Shown here piece by piece: positions 20,679 through 36,277 of a stretch of DNA of 37,776 bases (position 1 is the stretch's first letter; every line of letters begins with the position of its first letter). Position numbers and translations under genes: made by a program. The DNA is taken from assembly GCA_905478555.1 (NCBI GenBank), contig CAJQIZ010000022.1, forward strand, positions 1 through 37,776, in the 5' to 3' direction. This DNA is from an uncultured Flavobacteriales bacterium (lineage in GTDB: Bacteria; Bacteroidota; Bacteroidia; Flavobacteriales; BACL11). The notes below the pieces were generated by a model. The model did no database searches and had not been told where the DNA came from. It saw only the letters and a list, made by a program, of their open reading frames with translations.

Positions 20679-21815
20679 CTAAGCAAATAATACCTTTAAC
20701 TTTTCTATAGCATAATCAATATCTTCTTTAGTGTTGTATTTACTAAAAGAAAACCGAACTCCTGGTCGTAAAGAATCCGGAACAATAGCAGTAAGTACAT
20801 GTGATCCCTTACTACTACCAGAACTACAAGCAGAACCACCACTACAAGCTACTCCCAAAATATCTAGGTTAAACATCAGCATTTCCGAATTATCTCTTTC
20901 AGGAAAACTACAACTAAGTATGGTGTACAAACTATCATCTAATTCGGTGCATTTACCATAAAACCTTACATCTTCTATCTCCGATATAAGTTTTTCCATC
21001 ATATACTTTTTTAAACCTTTTATGTAAGCAGTTTCTTGTTCCATATGTTCATAAGCCATTTCCATGGCTTTTGCCATGGCTGCAATTCCATAAATATTTT
21101 CAGTACCCGCTCTCATATTTCTTTCTTGCCCTCCACCTCTAAATAATGGTTTTATCTGTATATCTTCCGATATATAAACAAATCCTATTCCTTTTGGTCC
21201 GTGAAATTTATGTGCAGAAGCAGCCATAAAATCTACATTTAATTCCTGCATATTAAACGGGAAATGTGCCATAGTTTGTACCGTATCGGAATGGAAAATA
21301 GCTTGGTGTTCTTTACAAATATCTCCAATTGATTTTATATCTTGTATGGTTCCTATCTCATTATTAGCATGCATTATAGATACAAATGTTCTTTCGTTAT
21401 CTTCTAACAGATGTTTTAAGTGAGAAAGAGAAACAGTTCCGTTTTTATCTATATCAATGTAAGTAAGTTTTATTTTACCTTCAGCAGCTAAATCTTCTAA
21501 AGGATACAATACTGCATGATGCGATAACTTAGAAGTAATAGCATGTGTTATTTTATGATCATGTATAGCACATTTAATGGCCATATTATCTGCTTCGGTT
21601 CCTCCAGAGGTAAAAAATATACTTCCTGGAGAGGTGTTTAAAATATTAGCTATGGTTTTTCTAGCACTTTCTACAACAATTTTCGCTTCCCTACCATAGG
21701 AGTGTAAAGAAGAAGGGTTTGCAAAATGAGTTTTCATCATCTCGCTCATTAAATCTATAATTTCAGGAGCCATTGGTGTAGTGGCTGCATTGTCTAAAAA
21801 TACTCTTTTACTCAT
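20679..21815 (-). CDS. Cysteine desulfurase (NifS/IscS family)
   Basis: 378 residues, aminotransferase class V fold. The start VFLDNAATTPMAPEIIDLM, SGGTEADNMAIK (PLP phosphate), the PLP-binding Lys near residue 201 in SAHKFHGPKGIGF and the catalytic Cys near residue 328 in SGGSACSSGSSKGSHVL are all present. The enzyme takes sulfur from cysteine for Fe-S clusters and other thio-cofactors. The short loop around the active Cys is closer to the IscS/NifS type than to SufS. Whether it is IscS or NifS is not decided, since no scaffold gene is adjacent. Its ATG overlaps the stop of the upstream phosphohexomutase gene by one base (TAATG). Confidence 0.93.
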   Translation of the reverse strand: MSKRVFLDNAATTPMAPEIIDLMSEMMKTHFANPSSLHSYGREAKIVVESARKTIANILNTSPGSIFFTSGGTEADNMAIKCAIHDHKITHAITSKLSHHAVLYPLEDLAAEGKIKLTYIDIDKNGTVSLSHLKHLLEDNERTFVSIMHANNEIGTIQDIKSIGDICKEHQAIFHSDTVQTMAHFPFNMQELNVDFMAASAHKFHGPKGIGFVYISEDIQIKPLFRGGGQERNMRAGTENIYGIAAMAKAMEMAYEHMEQETAYIKGLKKYMMEKLISEIEDVRFYGKCTELDDSLYTILSCSFPERDNSEMLMFNLDILGVACSGGSACSSGSSKGSHVLTAIVPDSLRPGVRFSFSKYNTKEDIDYAIEKLKVLFA

Positions 21816-23194
21816 TAAATTAGTCCTTTTATTTCGTTTATCATTTTCTGTGCAAAAGCAGTTGCTTTTTCCTCTCCTTCACTTTCAGCATATATTCTTA
21901 TTATTGGTTCTGTATTCGATTTTCTTAAATGAACCCAACCCTCTTCAAAATCAATTTTCAACCCATCGATATTAGTGATTTGTTCGTTTTGGTATTTCTG
22001 TTCTAAATTAGAAAGTATCTTATCTACATCAATTTCAGGGGTTAATTGTATCTTGTTTTTAGAGATAAAATAATTAGGGTACGAATCTCTAAGTTGTTTT
22101 GCCGATATTTTTCGCTCAGCAAGTTGAGTTAAAAACAAAGCCACTCCTATCAGTGCATCCCTTCCATAATGTAATTCCGGATAGATAACTCCACCATTTC
22201 CTTCTCCACCAATAATAGCATTAGTTTCTTTCATTTTTTCTACCACATTCACCTCTCCTACTGCAGAGGCTACATAACTTCCATTGTGTTTATTGGTTAC
22301 ATCTCTCAACGCTCTTGTAGAAGAAAGATTAGAAACTGTATTTCCGGCAGTTTTACTTAATACAAAATCAGCTATTGCAACTAAAGTGTATTCCTCACCA
22401 AACATACTACCATCTTCACAAACCATTGCCAATCTATCTACATCTGGATCTACTACAATGCCAAAATCTGCTTTTTCTTCTACTACTAATTTCGATATTT
22501 CTGTTAAATTTTCCGGTAATGGCTCTGGGTTGTGAGGGAATTGCCCATTTGGTTCGCAATATAATTTTACATACTCTACTCCCATTTTTTCTAACAACCT
22601 TGGTATCATAAATCCACCAGTAGAATTTACTGCATCTACAACTACTTTCAATCCTGCAGATTTTACTAAATCTACATCTACTAGTTTTAATTTTAACACC
22701 TCCTCAATATGTTTCTCGTTAAAACTATCATCAAAAACATAGGATCCTAAATTATCTACTTCCTCAAAAGAGAAATTGTCATTTTCGGCTAGTTCTAATA
22801 TTTCTTCTCCATCTTTTGCAGATAAAAATTCTCCTTTATTATTTAATAATTTTAAAGCATTCCATTGTTTTGGGTTATGACTTGCCGTTAAAATAATACC
22901 TCCTGCACTCTTATGTAATTGTACAGCAACTTCAACTGTTGGGGTGGTAGAAAGTCCGACATCTAACACATCAAAACCACATCCCATTAATGTTCCGGAA
23001 ACAATATTACTCACCATTTCTCCAGAAATCCTAGCATCTCTCCCAATAATAATTGTATTAGAACTACTCCCTTGTTTTTTTATAAAATTAGCGTAAGAAG
23101 CGGTAAATCTAACAATATCTAAAGGAGAAAGTGAATCCCCTACCTCTCCTCCAATTGTACCCCTTATTCCTGAAATGGACTTAATTAATGTCAT
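21815..23194 (-). CDS. Phosphoglucosamine mutase / phosphomannomutase family protein
   Basis: 459 residues, full-length alpha-D-phosphohexomutase with four domains. The catalytic phosphoserine is near residue 103 in LTASHNPKQWNALKLL. The Mg-binding loop VDPDVDRLAM is near 248, the sugar-binding GGEGNGGVIYPELHYGRDAL near 330, and the phosphate-binding loop RKSNTEPIIRIYAE near the C-terminus. The start SISGIRGTIGG is close to GlmM-type proteins. In Bacteroidota this type is usually annotated glmM (glucosamine-6-P to glucosamine-1-P for peptidoglycan and LPS), but phosphomannomutase activity is not excluded. It is first in a two-gene operon with the desulfurase. Confidence 0.9.
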   Translation of the reverse strand: MTLIKSISGIRGTIGGEVGDSLSPLDIVRFTASYANFIKKQGSSSNTIIIGRDARISGEMVSNIVSGTLMGCGFDVLDVGLSTTPTVEVAVQLHKSAGGIILTASHNPKQWNALKLLNNKGEFLSAKDGEEILELAENDNFSFEEVDNLGSYVFDDSFNEKHIEEVLKLKLVDVDLVKSAGLKVVVDAVNSTGGFMIPRLLEKMGVEYVKLYCEPNGQFPHNPEPLPENLTEISKLVVEEKADFGIVVDPDVDRLAMVCEDGSMFGEEYTLVAIADFVLSKTAGNTVSNLSSTRALRDVTNKHNGSYVASAVGEVNVVEKMKETNAIIGGEGNGGVIYPELHYGRDALIGVALFLTQLAERKISAKQLRDSYPNYFISKNKIQLTPEIDVDKILSNLEQKYQNEQITNIDGLKIDFEEGWVHLRKSNTEPIIRIYAESEGEEKATAFAQKMINEIKGLI

Positions 23195-23246: not shown

Positions 23247-23254
23247 TATCTTTG
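23247..23254 (+). promoter_or_regulatory. -7 box for the comA-popT-aroE operon
   Basis: TATCTTTG, the most common form of the Bacteroidota -7 box, is followed by CAATAC and lies 22 bases before the ATG at 23277. The -33 region is AT-rich without TTG. Confidence 0.6.
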
Positions 23255-23276: not shown

Positions 23277-24044
23277 ATGAACTTCTTCTTAACTGACATA
23301 CCAAACAGAGACAAAAAACCTAGAGAACATGGACTTACCATGATGATGGATAAAGGTCTGAGTGTTAATGATACTAAGAATTTTATTGACATGTGTAGCC
23401 CTCATACCGATATTGTGAAGTTAGGATTTGGTACTTCAGCTGTTTCACCACATATAGAAAAAAAAATAAAACTTTATCAGGATGCAGGGATAAAAGTCTA
23501 TTTAGGAGGAACCTTATTTGAAGCTTTCATTATTAGAAATATGTATGAAGAGTACAAGTCTTTATTAAGAAAATGGAATATTACTATGTGTGAAGTATCT
23601 GATGGATCTATAGAATTAGATCATGTTAAAAAATGCGAATATATTACAGATTTATCAAAAGAATTTTTAGTGGTTTCGGAAGTAGGATCAAAAGATGAAA
23701 AGAAACTTATTGCTCCTTACAAATGGATTGAACTAATGCAGAAAGAATTAGATGCAGGTAGTTGGAAGGTAATAGCTGAAGCTCGGGAAGGTGGTAATGT
23801 AGGTATTTTTAATAAAGGTGGAGATGTAAGATCAGATTTAATTGATGAAATATTGACAAAAATACCTACTGAAAAAATATTATGGGAAGCTCCAAAAAAA
23901 CCTCAACAAGTTTGGTTTATTAAACTTTTAGGACCTAATGTAAACTTAGGGAACATCAGTTGGGATGAAATAATCCCTTTAGAAACTTTAAGAATTGGAC
24001 TCAGAGGAGATACATTTTTTGATTATTTATCAGATAAAAAATAA
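23277..24044 (+). CDS. Phosphosulfolactate synthase (ComA) family protein
   Basis: 255 residues, a TIM-barrel of the ComA family (PF02679). Segments read PREHGLTMMMDKGLSVNDTK, DIVKLGFGTSAV, GGTLFEAF, CEVSDGSIEL, VVSEVGSKD, IAEAREGGNVGIF and KLLGPNVNLGNISWDEIIPL. Archaeal ComA adds sulfite to phosphoenolpyruvate to make (R)-2-phospho-3-sulfolactate, the first step of coenzyme M synthesis. Coenzyme M is not expected in Bacteroidota, so the product here is open: sulfolactate, another sulfonate or a different reaction. The stop overlaps the start of the DUF368 transporter gene by one base, so the two are coupled. Confidence 0.9.
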   Translation: MNFFLTDIPNRDKKPREHGLTMMMDKGLSVNDTKNFIDMCSPHTDIVKLGFGTSAVSPHIEKKIKLYQDAGIKVYLGGTLFEAFIIRNMYEEYKSLLRKWNITMCEVSDGSIELDHVKKCEYITDLSKEFLVVSEVGSKDEKKLIAPYKWIELMQKELDAGSWKVIAEAREGGNVGIFNKGGDVRSDLIDEILTKIPTEKILWEAPKKPQQVWFIKLLGPNVNLGNISWDEIIPLETLRIGLRGDTFFDYLSDKK

Positions 24045-24934
24045 TGAAAAAACATTTGTTCTTATTTTTAAAAGGAATTACAATGGGAGTAGCTAATGTT
24101 ATACCTGGGGTATCAGGAGGTACTATTGCTCTTATTACAGAGATTTATGAGGAACTCATAAACTCCTTAAAATCTTTTGACTTAAAAGCGTTAAAACTAC
24201 TTCTTAAAGGTCAATTTAAAGACTTTACAGTCCATACTAATCTATATTTTTTAATATCTGTATTTGGAGGTAGTGTGTTTAGCATGTTTAGTGTTGCTAA
24301 ACTTTTCGAATTTTTATTCGAATTTTATCCTAAAGAATTATGGTCTTTCTTTTTCGGACTCATACTAGCATCAGTATATTATGTAGGAATAAGAGTAGGA
24401 ATATGGAAAATACGATCTTATGTTTTTTTTATAATCGGAACTGCTATAGCTGTTTCCTTAGTTTTACTTTCCCCCTCTTCAGAAAGTACTAATTTAGTAT
24501 ATATATTTATGTGTGGTGTTATTGGTGTTACTGGAATGTTATTACCAGGACTTTCAGGTTCATTCATTCTAATACTAATGGGAAATTATAAGTTATTAAT
24601 GGTAGATTCGCTAAGTAAAAGTTTAAAATTTAATATAGATGCTATTAGCTATTTATTAGTTTTTATTTTAGGTTCTGTTGTAGGACTATTCGGATTTTCA
24701 CATATTATATCTTGGTTATTTAAACGATTTAAAGACTGTGTACTATCCTTACTTACAGGATTTATTTTAGGATCATTATTAATAATCTGGCCCTGGAAAG
24801 AGGTAGCGGAAAACAGACTAATTACATCTTGGTATTTACCTGAATTAAATAGTAGTACAATATTAGCTATTTCCTTAATGTTAATAGGTTTTTATATTGT
24901 AGTAAAATTAGAAACTTTTACCAAAGCTGACTAA
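24044..24934 (+). CDS. DUF368 membrane protein, polyprenyl-phosphate transporter (PopT type)
   Basis: 296 residues with about eight membrane helices. The two pseudo-symmetric family motifs are GVANVIPGVSGGTIALITEI (near residues 16-35) and GMLLPGLSGSFILILMGNYK (near 165-185). DUF368 proteins have been shown in other bacteria to return undecaprenyl phosphate across the inner membrane, supporting peptidoglycan and surface glycan synthesis. That role is inferred here from the family. It is coupled at both ends: the upstream comA-like stop and the downstream aroE start each share one base with it. Confidence 0.9.
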   Translation: MKKHLFLFLKGITMGVANVIPGVSGGTIALITEIYEELINSLKSFDLKALKLLLKGQFKDFTVHTNLYFLISVFGGSVFSMFSVAKLFEFLFEFYPKELWSFFFGLILASVYYVGIRVGIWKIRSYVFFIIGTAIAVSLVLLSPSSESTNLVYIFMCGVIGVTGMLLPGLSGSFILILMGNYKLLMVDSLSKSLKFNIDAISYLLVFILGSVVGLFGFSHIISWLFKRFKDCVLSLLTGFILGSLLIIWPWKEVAENRLITSWYLPELNSSTILAISLMLIGFYIVVKLETFTKAD

Positions 24935-25659
24935 TGAAACGATATGCCCTATTAGGTACATCTCTATCTCACTCCTTTTCTCAACAATATTTTTCAGAAA
25001 AATTTCTGAAAGAAAAAATTAAAAACACAGAATACTTTAATATAGAATTAGATAATTTAAATGGTTTAAAAAAGAAAATTACACAATTAAACCTTTCCGG
25101 ATTTAATGTTACTATTCCATATAAAGAAGAAATAATTAAGCAGTTAGATGTTCTATCAGAACAAGCAAACATAGTACAATCAGTAAATACAGTAAAAGTA
25201 ATAAGAGGTAAACTTCATGGATATAATACAGATGTATCCGGATTTGAAAAAAGTTTAATTCCTTTTCTTAAAAACAGGAATCAAGCAATTATATTAGGTA
25301 ATGGAGGTGCTTCCAAATCAATTCAATACGTCTTAAAAAAATTAAATATTAATTATATAATTGTAAGTAGAAATACAGATTTTGATTATCATAATATAAC
25401 CGAAAAAGTAATCAGAGAAAATAGTTTAATAATTAACTGCACACCTTTAGGAATGTACCCAGAAATTGAAAGTTTCCCTAAGTTACCATATAAATTACTA
25501 AATTCGAAACATTTACTTTTTGACTTAGTATACAACCCTAAAGAAACTAAATTCCTAACTTTAGGACTAGCAAATAATGCTACTATAAAAAACGGAGAAG
25601 AGATGTTGATTCTACAAGCAGAAGAAAGTTGGAGAATTTGGAATTCGGATACAATTTAA
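24934..25659 (+). CDS. aroE: Shikimate dehydrogenase AroE
   Basis: 241 residues, at the short end for the family, as is usual in Bacteroidota. Shikimate-binding Ser residues lie in LGTSLSHSFSQQYF, catalytic Lys in NVTIPYKEEIIKQL, Asp in GYNTDVSGFEKSL, the NADP-binding glycine loop in IILGNGGASKSIQYVL, and INCTPLGMYP and NGEEMLILQAEESW near the end. It reduces 3-dehydroshikimate in aromatic amino acid synthesis. It starts within the DUF368 stop (TAATG). Confidence 0.95.
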   Translation: MKRYALLGTSLSHSFSQQYFSEKFLKEKIKNTEYFNIELDNLNGLKKKITQLNLSGFNVTIPYKEEIIKQLDVLSEQANIVQSVNTVKVIRGKLHGYNTDVSGFEKSLIPFLKNRNQAIILGNGGASKSIQYVLKKLNINYIIVSRNTDFDYHNITEKVIRENSLIINCTPLGMYPEIESFPKLPYKLLNSKHLLFDLVYNPKETKFLTLGLANNATIKNGEEMLILQAEESWRIWNSDTI

Positions 25660-25691: not shown

Positions 25692-27488
25692 ATGTTAGAA
25701 GAAAATAAAGAAGAATTGGAAAGCACTCAATTAGAAAGTGTTGAATCTTTTACTGAAGAAAAACAAGAAAAAAAAGTAACTGAAATTAATTACAATTCCT
25801 TATCAATAGAGGAATTAATAGAGGAACACGAACAGTTGTTAGAAACAGAAAAACCTTATTCTGTATCCAAACAAATAGATGAAATTAAAGTATGTTTTTA
25901 TAAAAAACTTCATTCTTTAAATGATACTGAAAAAGAGAGTGAAGAGGAAGAGACTGAAACTGATTCTGAAAAGCAAGAAAAAACACTTCATCCGTTAGAA
26001 ATAAAGTTTAAACAAGTACATAATAAATACAGAAAATTAAAATCTGAATTTAGAAAAAATAGAGAACAAGAAGAAGAAAAAAATTTAAAAATAAAACAAC
26101 AAATTATTGTAGATATTGATGTTCTTATAAAAGAAGAAGAGTCTATAAAAACAACTTTTGAGAAATTCAGAACTCTACAGAATAAATGGAAAAATACTGG
26201 GAATGTTCCGTTAAAAGAAAACAATAATTTATGGCAGTCTTACCATCATCATGTGGAAATGTTTTATGATTATATTAAAATAAATAATGACTTAAGAGAT
26301 TTAGATTTTAAAAGAAATTTTGAACAAAAAACTCTTATTTGTGAAAAATCAGAAAAACTTCTTACTGAAAAATCAATAAATTCAGCATTCGATAAGCTAC
26401 AGGAATTACACGAACATTGGAAGAACATTGGCCCTGTAGTTAGAGAGTTAAGAGAAGAAATATGGAATAGATTTCAAGTTGCTAGTAGGAAAATTAACAA
26501 AAAGAAAAATGATTATTTTCATAAGAAACAAGCAATAAGAAAGAATAACCTTAAAATAAAATCTGAAATCTGCAAACAAATTATAGGATTAAGCACCCCT
26601 TTAGCAGACGATCATAATCAATGGGTAAAACTTACGGAAGAATTAAAGGTTTTTTCTGAAAAATGGAAGAAGGCAGCACCTATTGAAAAGGAAGATTTAA
26701 AAAAATCATGGTCAGAATTTAGAGAAGCAAACAATGAATTCTTTCAGAATAAAAGTCTTTTTTATAAAAACAAAAAGGAAGCAATATCTACTAACCTTCA
26801 AATAAAAGTATCTATTTGCGAAAAAGCAGAATCACTATCCAACTCTACACAATGGAACGATACAGGAAAAACTCTTATAAAACTTCAAGAACAATGGAAG
26901 AATTCTCCTTTTGTGCCTAATAACACATCCTCTCCTATTTGGAAAAGATTCAGTAAGGCATGTGATACATTTTTTAATGCGCGTAAAAGTCATTATAAAA
27001 AATTAGACCAAGAAAAGGAAGTGAATTTAAAAGAAAAAAAAGCTTTACTAAAAAAAGTAAATCTGTTTTCAGTTTCTGATGATGCAAAAAAAGATATTGT
27101 CAAATTAAAAGAGTTTTCAAAAAAATGGAATTCAATAGGGTTTATTGCTAGAGATTCTATGAAAATAAATGATGAATTTAATAATCGTATCTACTCACTT
27201 TATAATAAATTAAAAATTGATAAATCAGAAAAAGAAAATATTCAGTTTTTAGCTAAAACTGAATCTTTAAAAGGAAATAAACATCAATTAGATAAAGAAA
27301 AAGATTTTATAAGGAAACAAATTGAAAGTGTAAATAAAGTTATTTCACAATACGAAAACAACATTTCATTTTTTGGATATGGAAAAGGTACAGAATCTAT
27401 GAAAAAAGAAGTTATGAAGAAGATAGATCAATCTAAAAAAGAGATAGAAACACTAAAAGATAAACTAAGTACCCTAAATAAAATTTAA
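25692..27488 (+). CDS. DUF349 repeat protein
   Basis: 598 residues, highly charged, no signal or membrane segment. An acidic N-terminal 100 residues is followed by five DUF349-type helical units recognisable by a Trp-Lys core: QNKWKNTGNVPLKENNNLW (near 165), HEHWKNIGPVVRELREEIW (near 241), SEKWKKAAPIEKEDLKKSW (near 323), QEQWKNSPFVPNNTSSPIW (near 400) and SKKWNSIGFIARDSMKIN (near 477). The last 90 residues look like coiled coil. The family has no established biochemical role; binding of protein or nucleic acid is a guess. It lies one base before uvrB and is probably co-transcribed with it. Confidence 0.85.
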   Translation: MLEENKEELESTQLESVESFTEEKQEKKVTEINYNSLSIEELIEEHEQLLETEKPYSVSKQIDEIKVCFYKKLHSLNDTEKESEEEETETDSEKQEKTLHPLEIKFKQVHNKYRKLKSEFRKNREQEEEKNLKIKQQIIVDIDVLIKEEESIKTTFEKFRTLQNKWKNTGNVPLKENNNLWQSYHHHVEMFYDYIKINNDLRDLDFKRNFEQKTLICEKSEKLLTEKSINSAFDKLQELHEHWKNIGPVVRELREEIWNRFQVASRKINKKKNDYFHKKQAIRKNNLKIKSEICKQIIGLSTPLADDHNQWVKLTEELKVFSEKWKKAAPIEKEDLKKSWSEFREANNEFFQNKSLFYKNKKEAISTNLQIKVSICEKAESLSNSTQWNDTGKTLIKLQEQWKNSPFVPNNTSSPIWKRFSKACDTFFNARKSHYKKLDQEKEVNLKEKKALLKKVNLFSVSDDAKKDIVKLKEFSKKWNSIGFIARDSMKINDEFNNRIYSLYNKLKIDKSEKENIQFLAKTESLKGNKHQLDKEKDFIRKQIESVNKVISQYENNISFFGYGKGTESMKKEVMKKIDQSKKEIETLKDKLSTLNKI

Positions 27489-27489
27489 G

Positions 27490-29472
27490 ATGAACTTTGA
27501 GTTAGTTTCTGATTACCTACCTACGGGTGATCAGCCAGAGGCAATAAAACAACTTGTTAATGGATTAAATGATTTAGAAACTGCACAGACTCTTTTAGGG
27601 GTTACGGGTTCAGGTAAAACTTTTACGGTAGCTAATGTAGTGAAACAAGTAAACAGACCTACATTAGTATTGTGTCATAACAAAACCCTAGCAGCTCAAC
27701 TCTACTCCGAATTCAAACAATTTTTTCCTAATAATCTGGTGGAATATTTTGTTTCATATTACGATTACTACCAACCAGAAGCGTACATACCATCAACAGG
27801 AACTTATATAGAAAAAGATTTATCTATAAATGATGAAATAGAAAAACTCCGATTAAATACTACATCTGCACTTCTTTCTGGAAGAACTGATGTTATAGTA
27901 GTTGCTTCTGTTAGTTGTATTTATGGTATTGGAAATCCTGAAGAATTTAATAATGGAATTATTGAAATTAATGTTGGAGATGAAATTACAATAAACCATT
28001 TACTTCAAAAATTTGTAGCTTCTTTATACAGTAGAACCACAGCAGAATTTGAAAGAGGAAATTTTAGAGTGAAAGGAGATACGGTAGATATATACCCAGG
28101 ACATTCTGACATTGCCTACAGAATATCATTTTGGGGAAATGAAATTGAAGAGATAGAATCAATTGAAACAGATACAGGAAAAAAAATAGAAGACTTAAAA
28201 GAAATAAGAGTATTCCCTGCTAATATCTTTGTTGCTTCAAAAGAAAGAGTTCAAAATTCTTTAAAACATATTCAGAATGATTTGGTAAAAAGAGTGGAAG
28301 AATTTGAACAAGCAGGATTAAAAATAGAAGCCAAAAGATTAGATGAAAGAGTTAATTTTGACTTAGAAATGATAAAAGAATTAGGTTATTGTTCTGGTAT
28401 TGAAAATTATTCTCGATATTTTGATGGAAGAGCCGCCGGAACAAGACCCTTCTGTTTACTCGATTATTTTCCAAATGATTTCATTACAGTAGTAGACGAA
28501 TCTCATGTAACTCTACCTCAAGTAAGAGCTATGTACGGAGGAGATAAATCAAGAAAAACTAACCTAGTAGAACACGGGTTCAGACTACCCTCTGCATTAG
28601 ACAACAGACCCTTAAAGTTTGAAGAATGGGAAATGATTAATAAACAAACTATTTTTGTAAGTGCAACACCAGCAGATTACGAATTAGAAAAAAGTGAAGG
28701 AGTGGTTGTTGAACAAATTATAAGACCTACAGGTTTACTTGACCCTAAAATTGAAGTCCGAAAATCTAAAAACCAAATGGACGATTTACTAGAAGAAATA
28801 AGAATTAGAGTAGAAAAAAAAGAACGGGTTTTGGTTACTACACTCACCAAAAGAATGGCAGAGGAACTAACAAAATACCTAACTAAATTTGGGGTAAAAT
28901 GTAGATACATTCATTCTGATGTAGATACCTTAGATAGAATTGAAATAATTAACGGTTTAAGAGAAGGAGAGTTTGATGTTTTAATTGGAGTAAATTTATT
29001 AAGAGAAGGATTAGATCTACCAGAAGTAAGTTTGGTTGCTATATTAGATGCAGATAAGGAAGGATTTTTAAGATCGGCAAGAGCCTTAACACAAACATCA
29101 GGTAGAGCGGCAAGAAACCTGGACGGATTAGTAATTATGTATGCAGATAAAATTACTAGGTCAATGAAGATAACAATTGATGAAACTAATAGAAGAAGAA
29201 AAATACAAGAGAAACACAATACTAAACATGGAATAACCCCCAAACCTATCATTAAAAAACTGAATTCGGAAATACAAAATAGTTTAAACCCTTATTCTGT
29301 TAACAAAAAAAATACTCCCATAACTGATGATATGGACAAAAAACAGATTAGTAAAATGATAAAACTTACTAAAAAGGAAATGGAAAGAGCTGCTACAAAT
29401 CTAAATTTTATTGAAGCAGCTAAATTGAGAGATGAGTTAATAGAATTAGAAAAATTAAAGAATAAAAATTAG
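27490..29472 (+). CDS. uvrB: Excinuclease ABC subunit B (UvrB)
   Basis: 660 residues, full length. Walker A is GVTGSGKTFTVANV (near 38-50) and the beta-hairpin that clamps damaged DNA is YYDYYQPEAYIPSTGTYIEK (near 93). The helicase motifs include VDESH (near 335), ATPADYELEKSEG and GVNLLREGLDLPEVSLVAIL, followed by the QTSGRAARN motif. The C-terminal UVR domain that meets UvrC is KLTKKEMERAATNLNFIEAA. All functional parts are intact. UvrB receives damage from UvrA and loads UvrC in nucleotide excision repair. The stop codon shares two bases with the opposing stop of lpxB. Confidence 0.98.
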   Translation: MNFELVSDYLPTGDQPEAIKQLVNGLNDLETAQTLLGVTGSGKTFTVANVVKQVNRPTLVLCHNKTLAAQLYSEFKQFFPNNLVEYFVSYYDYYQPEAYIPSTGTYIEKDLSINDEIEKLRLNTTSALLSGRTDVIVVASVSCIYGIGNPEEFNNGIIEINVGDEITINHLLQKFVASLYSRTTAEFERGNFRVKGDTVDIYPGHSDIAYRISFWGNEIEEIESIETDTGKKIEDLKEIRVFPANIFVASKERVQNSLKHIQNDLVKRVEEFEQAGLKIEAKRLDERVNFDLEMIKELGYCSGIENYSRYFDGRAAGTRPFCLLDYFPNDFITVVDESHVTLPQVRAMYGGDKSRKTNLVEHGFRLPSALDNRPLKFEEWEMINKQTIFVSATPADYELEKSEGVVVEQIIRPTGLLDPKIEVRKSKNQMDDLLEEIRIRVEKKERVLVTTLTKRMAEELTKYLTKFGVKCRYIHSDVDTLDRIEIINGLREGEFDVLIGVNLLREGLDLPEVSLVAILDADKEGFLRSARALTQTSGRAARNLDGLVIMYADKITRSMKITIDETNRRRKIQEKHNTKHGITPKPIIKKLNSEIQNSLNPYSVNKKNTPITDDMDKKQISKMIKLTKKEMERAATNLNFIEAAKLRDELIELEKLKNKN

Positions 29473-30552: not shown

Positions 30553-30831
30553 TTATATAAACTTAATAGTTACAATAACAATTCCATACAATATAGTCGC
30601 AAGTAAAATTCCCCTAGAATGTTCTTCTTTATTTCCATTCATTTTTATAAAGAAAAAAACTAAATTTAAAATTAATGTAAGACTAATAATAGAGGGTAAG
30701 TTATAATCATTTACTTTATGATTTACAAAATAAGTTAAGTTATATTCTAAATAAAAAACTACTACTAATACAAAAGAAATAATAGGGATTAAAATTCCTA
30801 AAACTACACCTATTAAAAAATTCTTATTCAT
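30553..30831 (-). CDS. Small membrane protein between surE and lpxB
   Basis: 92 residues with three hydrophobic segments: about 5-28 (FLIGVVLGILIPIISFVLVV), 48-64 (IISLTLILNLVFFFI) and 75-91 (ILLATILYGIVIVTIKF). It is read as a real gene because its start overlaps the surE stop by one base and it lies one base before the lpxB start. Its frame is intact. No function is recognised. Its fixed place next to lpxB suggests an envelope role, but that is inference. Confidence 0.75.
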   Translation of the reverse strand: MNKNFLIGVVLGILIPIISFVLVVVFYLEYNLTYFVNHKVNDYNLPSIISLTLILNLVFFFIKMNGNKEEHSRGILLATILYGIVIVTIKFI

Positions 30832-31598
30832 TACAAAATATTATTTATTGTAGAAATTGCATGATGTGCAGTTACATCATACTGAACAGGAACAACCGAC
30901 ACATAATGATTTTCCAAAGCTCTCTCATCAGTATCTTCTCCTTTATCGTAATTTACAAACTTACCAGTAAGCCAATAATATTTTCTTCCTTTCGGATCTA
31001 CTCTTTCATCAAATTCTTCTTCCCAATTTGCTTTCGCTTGTCTACAAACTTTCATTCCTTTTATCTGTATGCCTGCTATAGACTTTGGTATATTTACATT
31101 TATACAAACTCCTTCTGGTAAACTACTTTCAAGTACAGAACTCACAATCTTTCTGATATATTTTTCTCCTTCCGAAAAATCTGCTTCTTTAGAATGATCT
31201 AAAAGAGAGAAACCAATAGAAGGAATACTATCTAAAGCACCTTCTACAGCAGCCGACATAGTACCAGAATAAATAACATTTATAGAGGAGTTAGAGCCAT
31301 GATTAATTCCTGAAACACATAAGTCAGGTTTTCTTGTAAGTAATTTATTTAGAGCAAGTTTAACACAGTCAACTGGAGTTCCACTGCAAGAATACTCTGT
31401 TTGTGGGCCGTTATCTATTGTTACTTTATCACAACGAATAGTATCTTCAATTGTAATAGCATGCCCTTTACCAGATTGTGGTCCGTCAGGAGCTACCACA
31501 ACTACCTCACCAAAATCATTCATTATAGAAATTAACTTTCGGATTCCAGGAGCTGTTATTCCATCATCATTTGTTACTAGTATTAAAGGTTTTTTCAT
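30831..31598 (-). CDS. surE: 5'/3'-nucleotidase SurE
   Basis: 255 residues from the ATG at 31598 (MKKPLILVTNDDGITAPGIR). The frame extends to a TTG at 31604, but the ATG gives the family start. The metal-binding Asp pair is in LVTNDDG, with further signatures VAPDGPQSGKGHAITI, the metal Asn in SGINHGSNSSINVIYSGTMS, and GIQIKGMKVCRQAKANWEEE. SurE dephosphorylates nucleoside monophosphates, and some members also act on polyphosphate. It is the first gene of the surE / 92-aa / lpxB group. Confidence 0.95.
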   Translation of the reverse strand: MKKPLILVTNDDGITAPGIRKLISIMNDFGEVVVVAPDGPQSGKGHAITIEDTIRCDKVTIDNGPQTEYSCSGTPVDCVKLALNKLLTRKPDLCVSGINHGSNSSINVIYSGTMSAAVEGALDSIPSIGFSLLDHSKEADFSEGEKYIRKIVSSVLESSLPEGVCINVNIPKSIAGIQIKGMKVCRQAKANWEEEFDERVDPKGRKYYWLTGKFVNYDKGEDTDERALENHYVSVVPVQYDVTAHHAISTINNIL

Positions 31599-31615
31599 GT
31601 TCAATTAATTTTTAA

Positions 31616-31623
31616 CAAAACTA
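31616..31623 (-). promoter_or_regulatory. -7 box for the surE-lpxB operon
   Basis: TAGTTTTG on the minus strand is a full TAnnTTTG match 17 bases before the surE ATG. The -33 region has no TTG at the ideal distance. Confidence 0.4.
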
Positions 31624-31662
31624 AGTTATATTTTTTGTTTTTATAAATTAAAAAAGAAAAAG

Positions 31663-32604
31663 TTAGATGTTTATTACTACTATCAAGGAAAAAATAGAAA
31701 TAAGTAACCAAAGTAAAAAACCTTGAAAAAATGGTTTCACTCCTACACTTTTTAAATTTTCAATTGACAAACTTGCTCCAATCAAAAATAGAGTTATCTG
31801 TAATCCCTTCTTAGCTAGAAATTTTATTTCTGTAAAGGTTTCCGAATATTGTGGCAAAGAAGAATTAATATACATTGCAACTAAAAAGAATAGAATAAAA
31901 TAAGGAAATGTAAATTTTGTATTTTTTCCTTTGTACAAAAATGATCCCAAAAAGACTAAAGGTATGATAAATAACACTCTGGCAAGCTTAACGGTTGTTG
32001 CTACTTCCAAAGATCTTTCTCCATAATCAGATGCGGCACCTAAAACAGAACTAGTATCGTGTATTGCAAGTCCCGCCCATAAACCAAAATCATCCTGACT
32101 CATATCTAATAAACCTCCTACTATTGGAAATACAAGTAATCCTAAAGCACTCAGTACAAATATAGTTCCTAAGGAAACAGATATTTGTTTTTCATTTGCC
32201 TTAATTACCGGTGAAATTGCCGCAATAGCACTTCCTCCACAAATGGAAGTTCCTGCGGTAATTAAATCAGAAATCGTTCGTTCAATTCCAAAAAACTTTC
32301 CTAGTAAATAACCTACAAATAGAGTTAATAAAACAAAAACAGAAACCCAATAAAAAGATTCTTTACCAATTTCAGTAGCAGCAGTTAAGGAGGTTCCGAA
32401 ACCAATACCTATCACTGAAAACTGAAGTAGGTACTTTGTTATTTCAGATGTTCTCTCCTGATAAGGGTTTCCTAATATAAGAGCAAAGAGTAATCCTAAA
32501 ACAAGAGAAATTAAAGAATTAATCCAATAAAATGGAGTTGCTATTAATATTATAAATCCGAAAAAAAGGATTTTATTAAAAGAAGAATTACTATTAATTT
32601 TCAA
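31663..32604 (-). CDS. YeiH-type putative sulfate exporter family membrane protein
   Basis: 313 residues, about ten membrane helices. Family-specific segments are LLQFSVIGIGFGTSLTAATE, the core TAGTSICGGSAIAAISPVIK, VFPIVGGLLDMSQDDFGLWA, GLAIHDTSSVLGAASDYGER and ATTVKLARVLFIIPLV (PF03601). The family is annotated as putative sulfate exporters from relatives linked to taurine and sulfonate breakdown; direct transport data are sparse. With the ComA-like enzyme 8 kb away it may handle sulfite, sulfate or a sulfonate, which is only a hypothesis. It is a single gene with the same direction as its neighbours. Confidence 0.87.
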   Translation of the reverse strand: MKINSNSSFNKILFFGFIILIATPFYWINSLISLVLGLLFALILGNPYQERTSEITKYLLQFSVIGIGFGTSLTAATEIGKESFYWVSVFVLLTLFVGYLLGKFFGIERTISDLITAGTSICGGSAIAAISPVIKANEKQISVSLGTIFVLSALGLLVFPIVGGLLDMSQDDFGLWAGLAIHDTSSVLGAASDYGERSLEVATTVKLARVLFIIPLVFLGSFLYKGKNTKFTFPYFILFFLVAMYINSSLPQYSETFTEIKFLAKKGLQITLFLIGASLSIENLKSVGVKPFFQGFLLWLLISIFSLIVVINI

Positions 32605-32661
32605 TCTTCATAATTTTGAGTTGCAAATAAATACATTTATTTGATAAATTAGTATTAAAAA

Positions 32662-34062
32662 CTATACAAATATCTTTCCTGGATTAAGGATATTGTTTGG
32701 GTCGAATAGTTTTTTAATTCCTTTTTGTAATTCTATTTCTTTATCAGAGAAAACTATATCCATATAATCTTTTTGCACTAAACCAATTCCATGTTCTCCT
32801 GAAAGTGTACCTCCTAAACTTTTTGTAAGTTCAAATATTTTTCTAATTCCTTTTGGGAGTTCATTCTTCCAATTTTCATCTGACATCTCACCTTTTAAGA
32901 TGTTTACATGCAGGTTCCCATCACCCGCATGTCCGTAACAAATAGACTTGAAACCATATTTCTTTCCAATTTGTTTTACTCCTTTTAGAAGCTTTGCAAG
33001 TTCCGCTCTTGGTACCACTGTATCTTCTTCTTTGTAAACAGAATTTGCTTTTACTGATTCCGCTACCGATCTTCTAAGTTTCCAAAGGTTTTCTTTTTCA
33101 GTACTGCTATCTGCAATCAATATTTCTCCACTTTCAAACTCTTCAAGAACTTTAACGATTTTCTCACAATCAGAATATAAAACATCAAAATTGTCTCCAT
33201 CTACTTCAATCAGTAAATGAGCTTCTACCCCATCTTCTATATTCATAGAAATATCTGTATGTTTTAAAGTCCAATCAATTGCATCTCTTTCAATAAACTC
33301 TAAAGCAGAGGGTGTTATACCGGCACGAAAAACTGCAGAAACCGCCTCACACGCTCTCTCAGCGCTATTGAAAGGAACCAACATTGTTATATCTTTTGTA
33401 GGTAATGGTATCAATCTGAAAACAATTTTGGTTATAATTCCTAAAGTCCCTTCACTTCCAACCATTAGTTGAGTGAGATTATAACCTGTTGAGTTTTTCA
33501 GAACATTAGCTCCTGTACAGATAATCTCTCCAGTAGGTAGAACTACTTCTAAGTTGAGAACATAATCTTTTGTAACACCATATTTTAGTGCTTTTGGTCC
33601 TCCTGAATTTGCTGCTATATTTCCACCAAGCATACAACTACCCTTACTTGCTGGATCAGGAGGATAAAACAGACCTTTATCTTTTACTTTATTCTGAAAA
33701 AATTCATTTATTACTCCAGGTTCAACTGTAGCTTGCAGATTTCTTTCGTCAATTTCAACAATAGAATTTAATTTTTCTAAACTTAAAACCAAACCACTTT
33801 CTACTGGTAAACTACCACCACTCAATCCTGTTCGGGCTCCACAGGGAGTTACAGGAATATTATGAATGTTACAATATTTCATTATCTCAGAAATTTTAGA
33901 TGTATTTTGAGGCTTTACAACTACTTGCGGAAGAAAAGATAAATCCTCTGTTTCATCATGAGAATACTCTTTTAAAACTTCTTCAGAATAAAAAATGTTA
34001 CTATTTCCAACAACAGATTGGAAATATAAAACATCTTCTTTATTTATTTTTTTATAACCCAT
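32662..34062 (-). CDS. FAD-linked oxidase of the GlcD / D-lactate dehydrogenase type
   Basis: 466 residues from the ATG at 34062 (MGYKKINKEDVLYFQSVVGN). The frame extends to an ATG at 34146, but that would run into the opposite DPP IV gene and past the promoter box. The FAD-binding domain has VTPCGARTGLSGGSLPVESG, PPDPASKGSCMLGGNIAANS and VGSEGTLGIITKIVFRLIPL. The C-terminal oxidase domain has CYGHAGDGNLHVNILKG and LGGTLSGEHGIGLVQKDYMD, with the metal/substrate His residues. It probably oxidises a 2-hydroxy acid such as D-lactate or glycolate. No partner GlcE/GlcF genes are adjacent, which favours a stand-alone D-lactate dehydrogenase. Confidence 0.9.
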   Translation of the reverse strand: MGYKKINKEDVLYFQSVVGNSNIFYSEEVLKEYSHDETEDLSFLPQVVVKPQNTSKISEIMKYCNIHNIPVTPCGARTGLSGGSLPVESGLVLSLEKLNSIVEIDERNLQATVEPGVINEFFQNKVKDKGLFYPPDPASKGSCMLGGNIAANSGGPKALKYGVTKDYVLNLEVVLPTGEIICTGANVLKNSTGYNLTQLMVGSEGTLGIITKIVFRLIPLPTKDITMLVPFNSAERACEAVSAVFRAGITPSALEFIERDAIDWTLKHTDISMNIEDGVEAHLLIEVDGDNFDVLYSDCEKIVKVLEEFESGEILIADSSTEKENLWKLRRSVAESVKANSVYKEEDTVVPRAELAKLLKGVKQIGKKYGFKSICYGHAGDGNLHVNILKGEMSDENWKNELPKGIRKIFELTKSLGGTLSGEHGIGLVQKDYMDIVFSDKEIELQKGIKKLFDPNNILNPGKIFV

Positions 34063-34076
34063 TGAACAATTTTGCG

Positions 34077-34084
34077 CAAATTTA
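34077..34084 (-). promoter_or_regulatory. -7 box for the FAD oxidase gene
   Basis: TAAATTTG on the minus strand, 14 bases before the ATG at 34062, supports that start. The plus-strand gene at 34115 must share this 52-base spacer; its best box is TAAATTCG at 34086-34093, one base off consensus. Confidence 0.45.
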
Positions 34085-34114
34085 AGTAAATTCGCCCTTC
34101 TAAAATTACAGATT

Positions 34115-36277
34115 ATGAAAAAGACATTAACATTAATTATTTGCATCTCTATTTCTATTTTTTCTTTCGGCCAAAAAGAAGTGACACTAGAAGATATTTG
34201 GCAGAATTATAAATTCTATCCAAGTGGGGTTTCTGGTTTTAAATCCATGAATAATGGAGAACATTATACTACAACCGAAAATACTGAAAACGGAATAAAG
34301 ATTAATAAAAACTCTTTTGAAACAGGAGAAGTGGTAGAAACCTTATTAGATTCGGAGGATGAAAGACTGTTAAGTATGGGTTCCTATCAATTTAACTTAT
34401 CAGAAGATAAAATTCTGATAGCAACAAATTCAGAATCTATTTACCGATACAGTTCCAAATCAGTTTATTACATCTACAATATCAAAACTAAATCTATTAG
34501 AAACTTAATAGATAAAGAGGTGATGTATGCTACTTTTTCTCCTGATGGAAACAATATTGCTTATGTACTGGAGAATAACCTTTATATATATAATCTGAAT
34601 TGGAATAAAACAACAGCCATAACTACTGATGGAGAAAACAATAAAATAATAAATGGAGCTTCCGACTGGGTTTATGAAGAGGAATTTGCATTAATTCGTT
34701 CCTTTGAATGGAGTGGAGATAGTAAAACCATTGCCTTTTACAAATTTGATGAAAGTGAAGTGAAAGAATTTTCCATGGATCTGTTTAATGGAGGACTATA
34801 CCCAACACAGGAAGTATTTAAATACCCAAAAGCAGGTGAAGATAATTCATTAGTAAGTTTGCACATGTATGACATTAACACCAAAAAAACTACAGATTTA
34901 AAATTTGAAAAAGATTACGAGTATTTTCCTAGAATAAAATGGTTTGATGACACAAACCCTCAACTAGTTATTTACGGAATGAATAGATACCAAAATGAAT
35001 TAGATTTTTTAGTGACAAACACTGATGGATCCTCCATATTATTTTTTACTGAAACTGACAAATATTACATTGACATTCATGATAATTTAAGATATTTAGA
35101 CATACAGAAATCTTTTATCTGGACTTCAGAAAAAAGTGGATTTAATCATATTTATTTAAAAGATTTGGATGGAAATGAAAGTCAGATTACAAAAGGGGCA
35201 TGGGAGGTAACAAAATTCCATGGAATAGATGAGAATAATATTATCTATTTTTCTTCTAAGGAAAGCGGATCCATAAATGACGCTATGTATAAAGTAGATT
35301 TGAACGACCGAACATTTAGCAGAATTCCTATGACTAAAACTACTGGAACAAATAATGTTACTTTTTCTAAAGGAATGAAGTATTTTATGAATTCTTATTC
35401 TAACCATAACACTCCTCCAATTTATACTTTAAACAGGACTTCAGATGGAGAAATAATAAAATTACTAGAAGAAAATTTAGATTTTAATACCAGATTAAAA
35501 GATTATGATTTAACCGAAAAAGAATTCTTCACTATAGAAACTGAAGAAGGAGAAGATCTAAATACTTGGATGATGAAACCAACTGATTTTGATTCTAAAA
35601 AAAAATATCCATTATACATGTTTTTATATGGTGGACCAGGATCGCAGCAAGTAACAGATTCTTGGGGTTGGTTTAATTATTTTTGGTACCAACACTTAAA
35701 TCAATTGGGATATATTGTAGTGTGTGTAGACAATAGAGGGACAGGAGGAAAAGGTGCGGAATTTAAGAAAATGACCTATCAAGAATTAGGAAGGTATGAA
35801 ACCATTGACCAAATAAATGCAGCAAAGTACTTTGGTAGTTTGGATTATATCGATTCTGAAAGAATAGGAATTCAAGGTTGGAGTTATGGTGGGTATATGT
35901 CCTCACTTGCTATTACAAAAGGAGCAGATGTATTTAAAATGGCTATTGCTGTTGCTCCGGTTACTAATTGGAGATACTATGACAATATCTATACGGAAAG
36001 ATATATGCGTACTCCACAAGAGAATGCAAGTGGTTATGACGATAACTCTCCAATAAATCATGTAGATAAACTAAAAGGAAGTTATTTATTGATTCATGGT
36101 GGTGCTGATGATAATGTACATGTACAAAATACAATGGAAATGATTTCTGCATTAGTAAACGCAAACAAACAATTTGATTTGTTTATTTACCCAGATAAAA
36201 ACCATGGAATTTATGGAGGAAATACCAGATACCATCTTTACAAGAAAATGACTGATTTTATTTTAAATAATTTATAA
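34115..36277 (+). CDS. Dipeptidyl peptidase IV (S9B family), secreted
   Basis: 720 residues. Signal peptide MKKTLTLIICISISIFSFGQ, then the eight-bladed propeller domain (about 60-480) with the N-terminus-recognising Glu pair in DWVYEEEFALIRSFEWSGDS near residue 190. The alpha/beta hydrolase domain carries Ser near 591 in GWSYGGYMSSLAI, Asp near 667 in HGGADDNVHVQN and His near 697 in PDKNHGIYGG. YGGPGSQQVTDSWGW and VVCVDNRGTGGKGAEFKKM are family motifs. It should remove X-Pro or X-Ala dipeptides from peptide N-termini in the periplasm, supporting peptide use. It stands alone, and its stop directly abuts the stop of the small lipoprotein gene on the other strand. Confidence 0.94.
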   Translation: MKKTLTLIICISISIFSFGQKEVTLEDIWQNYKFYPSGVSGFKSMNNGEHYTTTENTENGIKINKNSFETGEVVETLLDSEDERLLSMGSYQFNLSEDKILIATNSESIYRYSSKSVYYIYNIKTKSIRNLIDKEVMYATFSPDGNNIAYVLENNLYIYNLNWNKTTAITTDGENNKIINGASDWVYEEEFALIRSFEWSGDSKTIAFYKFDESEVKEFSMDLFNGGLYPTQEVFKYPKAGEDNSLVSLHMYDINTKKTTDLKFEKDYEYFPRIKWFDDTNPQLVIYGMNRYQNELDFLVTNTDGSSILFFTETDKYYIDIHDNLRYLDIQKSFIWTSEKSGFNHIYLKDLDGNESQITKGAWEVTKFHGIDENNIIYFSSKESGSINDAMYKVDLNDRTFSRIPMTKTTGTNNVTFSKGMKYFMNSYSNHNTPPIYTLNRTSDGEIIKLLEENLDFNTRLKDYDLTEKEFFTIETEEGEDLNTWMMKPTDFDSKKKYPLYMFLYGGPGSQQVTDSWGWFNYFWYQHLNQLGYIVVCVDNRGTGGKGAEFKKMTYQELGRYETIDQINAAKYFGSLDYIDSERIGIQGWSYGGYMSSLAITKGADVFKMAIAVAPVTNWRYYDNIYTERYMRTPQENASGYDDNSPINHVDKLKGSYLLIHGGADDNVHVQNTMEMISALVNANKQFDLFIYPDKNHGIYGGNTRYHLYKKMTDFILNNL

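Follow-up and report, generated by a model that had tools for sequence, protein, structure and literature searches.

A putative sulfolactate pathway and an exchangeable flippase slot at a conserved comA gene cluster of Bacteroidia

In a marine Flavobacteriales genome, a homologue of comA, the gene for phosphosulfolactate synthase, overlaps the start of a DUF368 (PopT-type) flippase gene. By analysing the surrounding 37,776 bases (hereafter the window) together with comA loci from other Bacteroidota, we arrive at a reading to which we assign a probability of about 0.68: an active ComA and an unlinked ComB would make 3-sulfolactate, as a sulfite sink and/or a solute, and the pairing with popT would stem from an ancestral operon in which PopT has a separate job and its position is reserved for lipid-carrier translocases. 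ComA would combine PEP and sulfite to (R)-phospho-3-sulfolactate, from which ComB, a phosphatase whose gene lies at another place in the genome, would then yield 3-sulfolactate, as an end product and not as a precursor of coenzyme M. This product may serve as a sink for sulfite released by the turnover of sulfur compounds, as a retained or excreted solute, or as both. PopT, apart from ComA's job, would recycle polyprenyl phosphate for cell-wall and surface glycans; the overlap would co-express the two genes with no need of a common substrate. The place between comA and aroE would be kept for a lipid-carrier translocase, with PopT, DedA and PF06695 proteins exchanged in place.

The gene cluster around comA

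In the window, comA, popT and aroE are followed by a DUF349 gene and by uvrB, the last gene of the run, with a glmM-type gene as divergent neighbour (Table 1). As the initial annotation had stated, the comA stop overlaps the DUF368 start: the TAA at 24042-24044 and the ATG at 24044-24046 have one base in common, 24044, and the popT stop and aroE start likewise share a single base. The overlap suggests translational coupling of comA to popT. By itself it is ordinary for the window, since 4 of the 22 co-directional junctions in the whole window have the same 1-base form; 12 of the 22 have a gap of 10 bases or fewer. The aroE product scored 174 bits against TIGR00507 in the NCBIfam scan, under the cut-off of 200. 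A promoter-type TAnnTTTG motif lies ahead of comA at 23247-23254; it was rejected as promoter evidence, with 66 such motifs in the window against 64 in shuffles and hence no enrichment.

Table 1. Features of the window and of the comA-aroE slot in related loci
Feature	Position	Strand	Basis or remark
Window	37,776 bases, one contig		1.79 Mb genome, 99% complete
glmM-type phosphoglucosamine mutase, divergent neighbour	21815..23194	-	TIGR03990, above cut-off
comA homologue, PSL synthase family, 255 aa	23277..24044	+	PF02679
TAATG junction, comA/popT	24042..24046	+	sequence
DUF368/PopT-type polyprenyl-phosphate translocase (putative), 296 aa; exchangeable flippase slot	24044..24934	+	PF04018
TAATG junction, popT/aroE, same form as comA/popT	24932..24936	+	sequence
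aroE, shikimate dehydrogenase, 241 aa	24934..25659	+	PF08501
DUF349 protein, next gene of run	25692..27488	+	PF03993, 5 repeats
uvrB, last gene of run	27490..29472	+	NF003673, above cut-off
YeiH-type gene	31663-32604	-	124.9 bits, below NCBIfam YeiH cut-off 232.6
DedA-family slot gene, Cytophagales	L071:8804-9448; L082:8880-9530; L097:8764-9417		NF008102
PF06695 'small multidrug export' slot gene	L177:3959-4438; L178:4078-4554; L181:5123-5599	-	PF06695

Gene order was compared across 104 comA loci, made up of the best 80 of a named genome collection, the loci of the window's family and other Bacteroidota loci, a set tilted towards the window's kin since 80 are best matches. Among the best 80, the nearest named ComA is 76% identical to that of the window and comes from a Flavobacteriales MAG. 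Because popT is the next gene 3' of comA in 61 of the 104 loci, mostly at tight spacing (a gap of -4 to +12 bases in 40 of the 61), the adjacency is far beyond chance. The pairing first noticed in the window is widespread and not limited to its genome, and its tight spacing persists across distant orders, also where genomes are large and less compact. The most constant neighbour of comA is not popT but the gene for a TPR protein of ~468 residues, directly 5' of comA in 77 loci (for example L036:6595-7998, an uncharacterised protein, with 76 further loci); aroE, present in 72, comes second. In 18 of the 104 loci, aroE stands directly after comA and the flippase is missing.

Cytophagales and Flavobacteriales have the order TPR, comA, flippase, aroE, often with uvrB added, which lies 3' of aroE in many Cytophagales too; Sphingobacteriales have TPR, comA, aroE, without a flippase. 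The TPR gene sits between the glmM-type gene and comA in sister Flavobacteriales and has been lost from the locus in the window's family; the DUF349 gene is kept at the locus in that family and its close relatives only. The ancestral Bacteroidia cluster is TPR, comA, flippase, aroE, and it is old and widespread in Bacteroidota. In Cytophagales, genes for polysaccharide or capsule export (Wza-, Wzc- and CpsB-like, and an epimerase) lie 5' of the cluster. In one Bacteroidota family outside Bacteroidia, comA is part of a glycogen operon, with glgB and malQ before it and glgA after it; rho follows downstream (loci L126, L127, L128, L129, L130 and L143). Our literature search returned nothing relevant on ComA with Bacteroidetes or on ComA with DUF368.

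ComA, ComB and the supply of sulfite

The assignment of the window's protein as ComA-like is borne out by the Pfam profile PF02679, which it matches at 291.5 bits (E 6e-87; gathering score 25.2), and by phmmer matches to the solved structures 1u83 (E 1e-55) and 1qwg (E 2e-47). Its AlphaFold model (pLDDT 77.9) has 1qwg as the closest fold (TM 0.79, Foldseek E 1e-19) and shows the TIM barrel of both structures. Against the archaeal equivalog TIGR03849 it reached 258.6 bits, under the NCBIfam cut-off of 280, so we file it in the PF02679 family and not as an archaeal ComA equivalog. The window's protein retains all 26 polar residues that the M. jannaschii and B. subtilis enzymes have in common and that show at least 90% conservation across Bacteroidota. 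Among them is K139, which aligns with M. jannaschii K137, presumably the general acid of phosphosulfolactate synthase. The window's comA thus probably encodes an active phosphosulfolactate synthase, judging from its sequence and modelled fold.

ComA is near-core in the class, occurring in 167 of 198 Bacteroidia genomes, and is retained in 46 of the 52 genomes of the window's reduced-genome family. Its tree is broadly in line with taxonomy. It is absent from all sampled genomes of group f3, which we take to be Flavobacteriaceae; members of that family without comA probably still have popT and aroE side by side.

The window's genome also encodes ComB (PF04029, 219 bits, E 3.5e-65), on contig 18 beside gcvT. 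There comB and gcvT overlap by 4 bases (L003:6713-8505), and gcvT lies near comB in most of the other Bacteroidia loci retrieved. In the 198 Bacteroidia genomes, 158 have both ComA and ComB, 27 neither, 9 ComA only and 4 ComB only; the 13 unpaired genomes are mostly incomplete MAGs, and the Fisher p of 2e-21 overstates the significance, as the genomes are related. Genomes lacking both do, however, occur inside mixed families (G002 in f4, G342 in f48). In the phylum sample, ComB was found in 64 of 64 ComA genomes and on its own in 70 more, and therefore has other roles too. Since ComB is encoded in the same genome and tracks ComA, the likely route runs from PEP and sulfite through phosphosulfolactate to sulfolactate. 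A ComC-type sulfolactate dehydrogenase (PF02615) was not found in the 99% complete genome of the window, and a coenzyme M route was rejected on this ground. The genome thus gives no sign of coenzyme M synthesis, in line with the initial annotation; its remark on an unexpected cofactor needs amending insofar as the wide occurrence of ComA, and of ComB with it, makes sulfolactate the expected product.

Family, fold and conserved polar residues are shared with M. jannaschii ComA (1qwg) and B. subtilis YitD (1u83), as is a ComB partner. The window's genome differs from these systems in having no ComC-type dehydrogenase, in placing comB outside the operon, in having a flippase gene and aroE as the neighbours of comA, and in offering no recognised dedicated supply of sulfite. 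In B. subtilis, yitCD have been inferred to make phosphosulfolactate and sulfolactate, and sulfolactate amounts to 5% of spore dry weight (PMC517825); there, as here, ComA and ComB occur without coenzyme M, with sulfolactate as the inferred product. The yitCD genes form one operon, with a yitBA-yisZ operon in the same pathway, under sporulation control, whereas in the window's genome they lie apart, in a Gram-negative host that forms no spores. The sulfolactate pathway is of a known kind, in an undescribed Bacteroidia setting.

Searches of the window's genome for likely sources of sulfite found no PAPS/APS reductase (the PF01507 search gave CysD only, beside CysC/CysN), no sulfite/nitrite reductase (NIR_SIR) and no cysteine dioxygenase (PF05995). 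NIR_SIR occurs in 1 of the 52 genomes of the window's family and in none of the 15 good ones. Assimilatory supply was rejected on these grounds, the sole PF01507 protein being a CysD that serves sulfation, as was supply by cysteine dioxygenase. With these reductases missing, the sulfite used by ComA would not be assimilatory; with the dioxygenase missing as well, it would have to come from other turnover, of persulfide, thiosulfate or organosulfur compounds. The PAPS of this genome apparently serves surface sulfation only. Close to the genes for CysN, CysD, CysC and CysQ (L167:8238-15812) stand one flippase-like gene and two sulfotransferase-like ones, the latter assigned by eye, the one scanned having no NCBIfam match. 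In four loci, from related Flavobacteriales and from one further member of the class, comA and popT are separated by a gene for a single-domain rhodanese, possibly marking a sulfite-related step (L035:8772-9068, L038:8731-9069, L049:8783-9085 and L145:6664-6978). The weakest step of our explanation is the role proposed for sulfolactate, as a solute or a sink for sulfite.

The place between comA and aroE

The DUF368 (PopT-type) gene named in the initial annotation is equally real, its product matching PF04018 at 261.5 bits (E 1e-77; gathering score 26), while its 254.5 bits against NF052564 fall under the NCBIfam equivalog cut-off of 400. DUF368 and DedA proteins are candidate C55-P translocases of overlapping function (PMC9876793). 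The locus recalls these DUF368/PopT and DedA/UptA translocases in having PF04018 in the window and DedA in the slot of relatives, and differs from them in the linkage of popT to comA and aroE and in that sub-threshold score. In Rufibacter roseus (L055), the slot protein is a PopT above the NF052564 cut-off, at 425.3 bits; in Rufibacter sediminis (L071), with flanks as in R. roseus, a DedA-family protein occupies the place. DedA genes lie near comA in L111 and L113 as well. The transporters that stand in for PopT in relatives are either unrelated to it or remote in their relationship.

Within the window's family, the slot holds PopT in 15 of 18 loci and a PF06695 protein in L177, L178 and L181, which belong to three separate lineages, L181 to the window's own genus. 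These proteins (~158 aa, 132-135 bits) are encoded by genes that overlap or abut comA and aroE, so that a family known as 'Sm_multidrug_ex' (PMC7818093) fills the same slot as PopT in three genomes. The flanks of L176, with PopT, and L177, with PF06695, are nearly identical (GlmM 95%, ComA 94%, UvrB 98%, AroE 86%), and the swap is therefore recent and local. Between L177 and L178 the PF06695 proteins are 82% identical and the ComA proteins 59%, which points to transfer.

Replacement of PopT by PF06695 in place, in three lineages, predicts that PF06695 proteins move lipid carriers, and an ability to flip them would be the simplest reading of the exchange. PF06695 is a distant homologue of the DedA family PF09335, a relationship that we take from the literature (PMC7818093), where our search found no lipid-carrier function for PF06695. 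It is possible, if somewhat short of probable, that lipid-carrier translocases replace one another at the position between comA and aroE; that PF06695 is an unrecognised family of polyprenyl-phosphate translocases, which has taken over from PopT in three or more lineages within a single marine family, much as DedA did in Rufibacter and in further Cytophagales; and that the position stays linked to a sulfolactate pathway which is near-universal in Bacteroidia and yet undescribed. The flippase exchange is more novel than the sulfolactate pathway. It suggests for PF06695, whose present name refers to no more than putative drug export, a function open to direct test, and, if the slot reading is right, supplies a further candidate for the still incomplete catalogue of lipid-carrier flippases.

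Alternative explanations and implications

The gene order might simply be a relic of vertical inheritance with no benefit from co-regulation. Such a history would suit a ComA tree that follows taxonomy, the frequency of overlaps in a compact genome and the persistence of aroE and uvrB, neighbours without obvious link, side by side; we nevertheless consider it unlikely, given that tight spacing has been kept over distant orders and in large genomes and that replacement brings a protein of the same functional type back into the slot. The initial annotation had suggested a joint role, for example in a sulfonated envelope product. In that case, sulfolactate would decorate a surface polymer assembled on polyprenyl phosphate, with coupling of comA to the flippase balancing supply and carrier recycling. 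The frequent position of popT directly after comA would fit, as would the DedA-superfamily membrane protein that fills the place where PopT was lost, the capsule-type genes upstream in Cytophagales and the divergent glmM of the window. We find the proposal improbable all the same: comB lies elsewhere, beside gcvT; comA directly precedes aroE in the 18 loci lacking a flippase, an arrangement typical of Sphingobacteriales; outside Bacteroidia comA belongs to a glycogen operon; recombination exchanges the slot and leaves comA untouched; and PopT serves all lipid-carrier polymers, so a dedicated product is unnecessary. Co-transcription of two independent housekeeping functions fits the data as well as a joint envelope product does. 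The long-kept order and the capsule-export genes of Cytophagales could still mean that ComA and the envelope are functionally connected, a link that we do not credit here.

Departures from the expected chemistry appear less credible still. A homologue with a changed reaction, also raised by the initial annotation, or with a non-enzymatic role such as that of Hsa32, a plant heat-stress protein homologous to ComA, would agree with the score under the archaeal cut-off. It would agree, too, with an unclear sulfite supply, the family lacking sulfite reductase and the genome lacking PAPS/APS reductase and cysteine dioxygenase. Retention of every polar position common to the two solved enzymes and the tight co-occurrence of ComA with ComB argue against it, and we rate it as quite improbable. 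Sulfolactate could also be an intermediate on the way to sulfopyruvate and thence to cysteate, for sulfonolipids, or to coenzyme M. We judge this very improbable, as the genome has no ComC-type dehydrogenase and the sampled f3 genomes have no ComA, even though sulfonolipids do occur in Bacteroidota. Algoriphagus, a genus represented in our set of comA loci, encodes a cysteate fatty acyltransferase, but in known sulfonolipids it is cysteate synthase that produces the cysteate, from phosphoserine (PMC11211663).

Should our preferred reading, with sulfolactate as end product, hold, sulfolactate would be made by the majority of Bacteroidia, a major class of marine, soil and freshwater bacteria. 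They would then form a large and so far overlooked source of a sulfonate used by other bacteria. Retention of ComA in genomes that have lost sulfite reduction would indicate a sink for sulfite.

The initial annotation also drew attention to a YeiH-type putative sulfate exporter 8 kb downstream. We rejected it as a partner of comA and popT: in L034, the closest named relative and the one checked, no such gene stands between those for SurE and GlcD. In the window the gene is present 6.7 kb beyond popT, in a separate run on the reverse strand (30831-34146), where it lies with genes for a GlcD-like oxidase and SurE.
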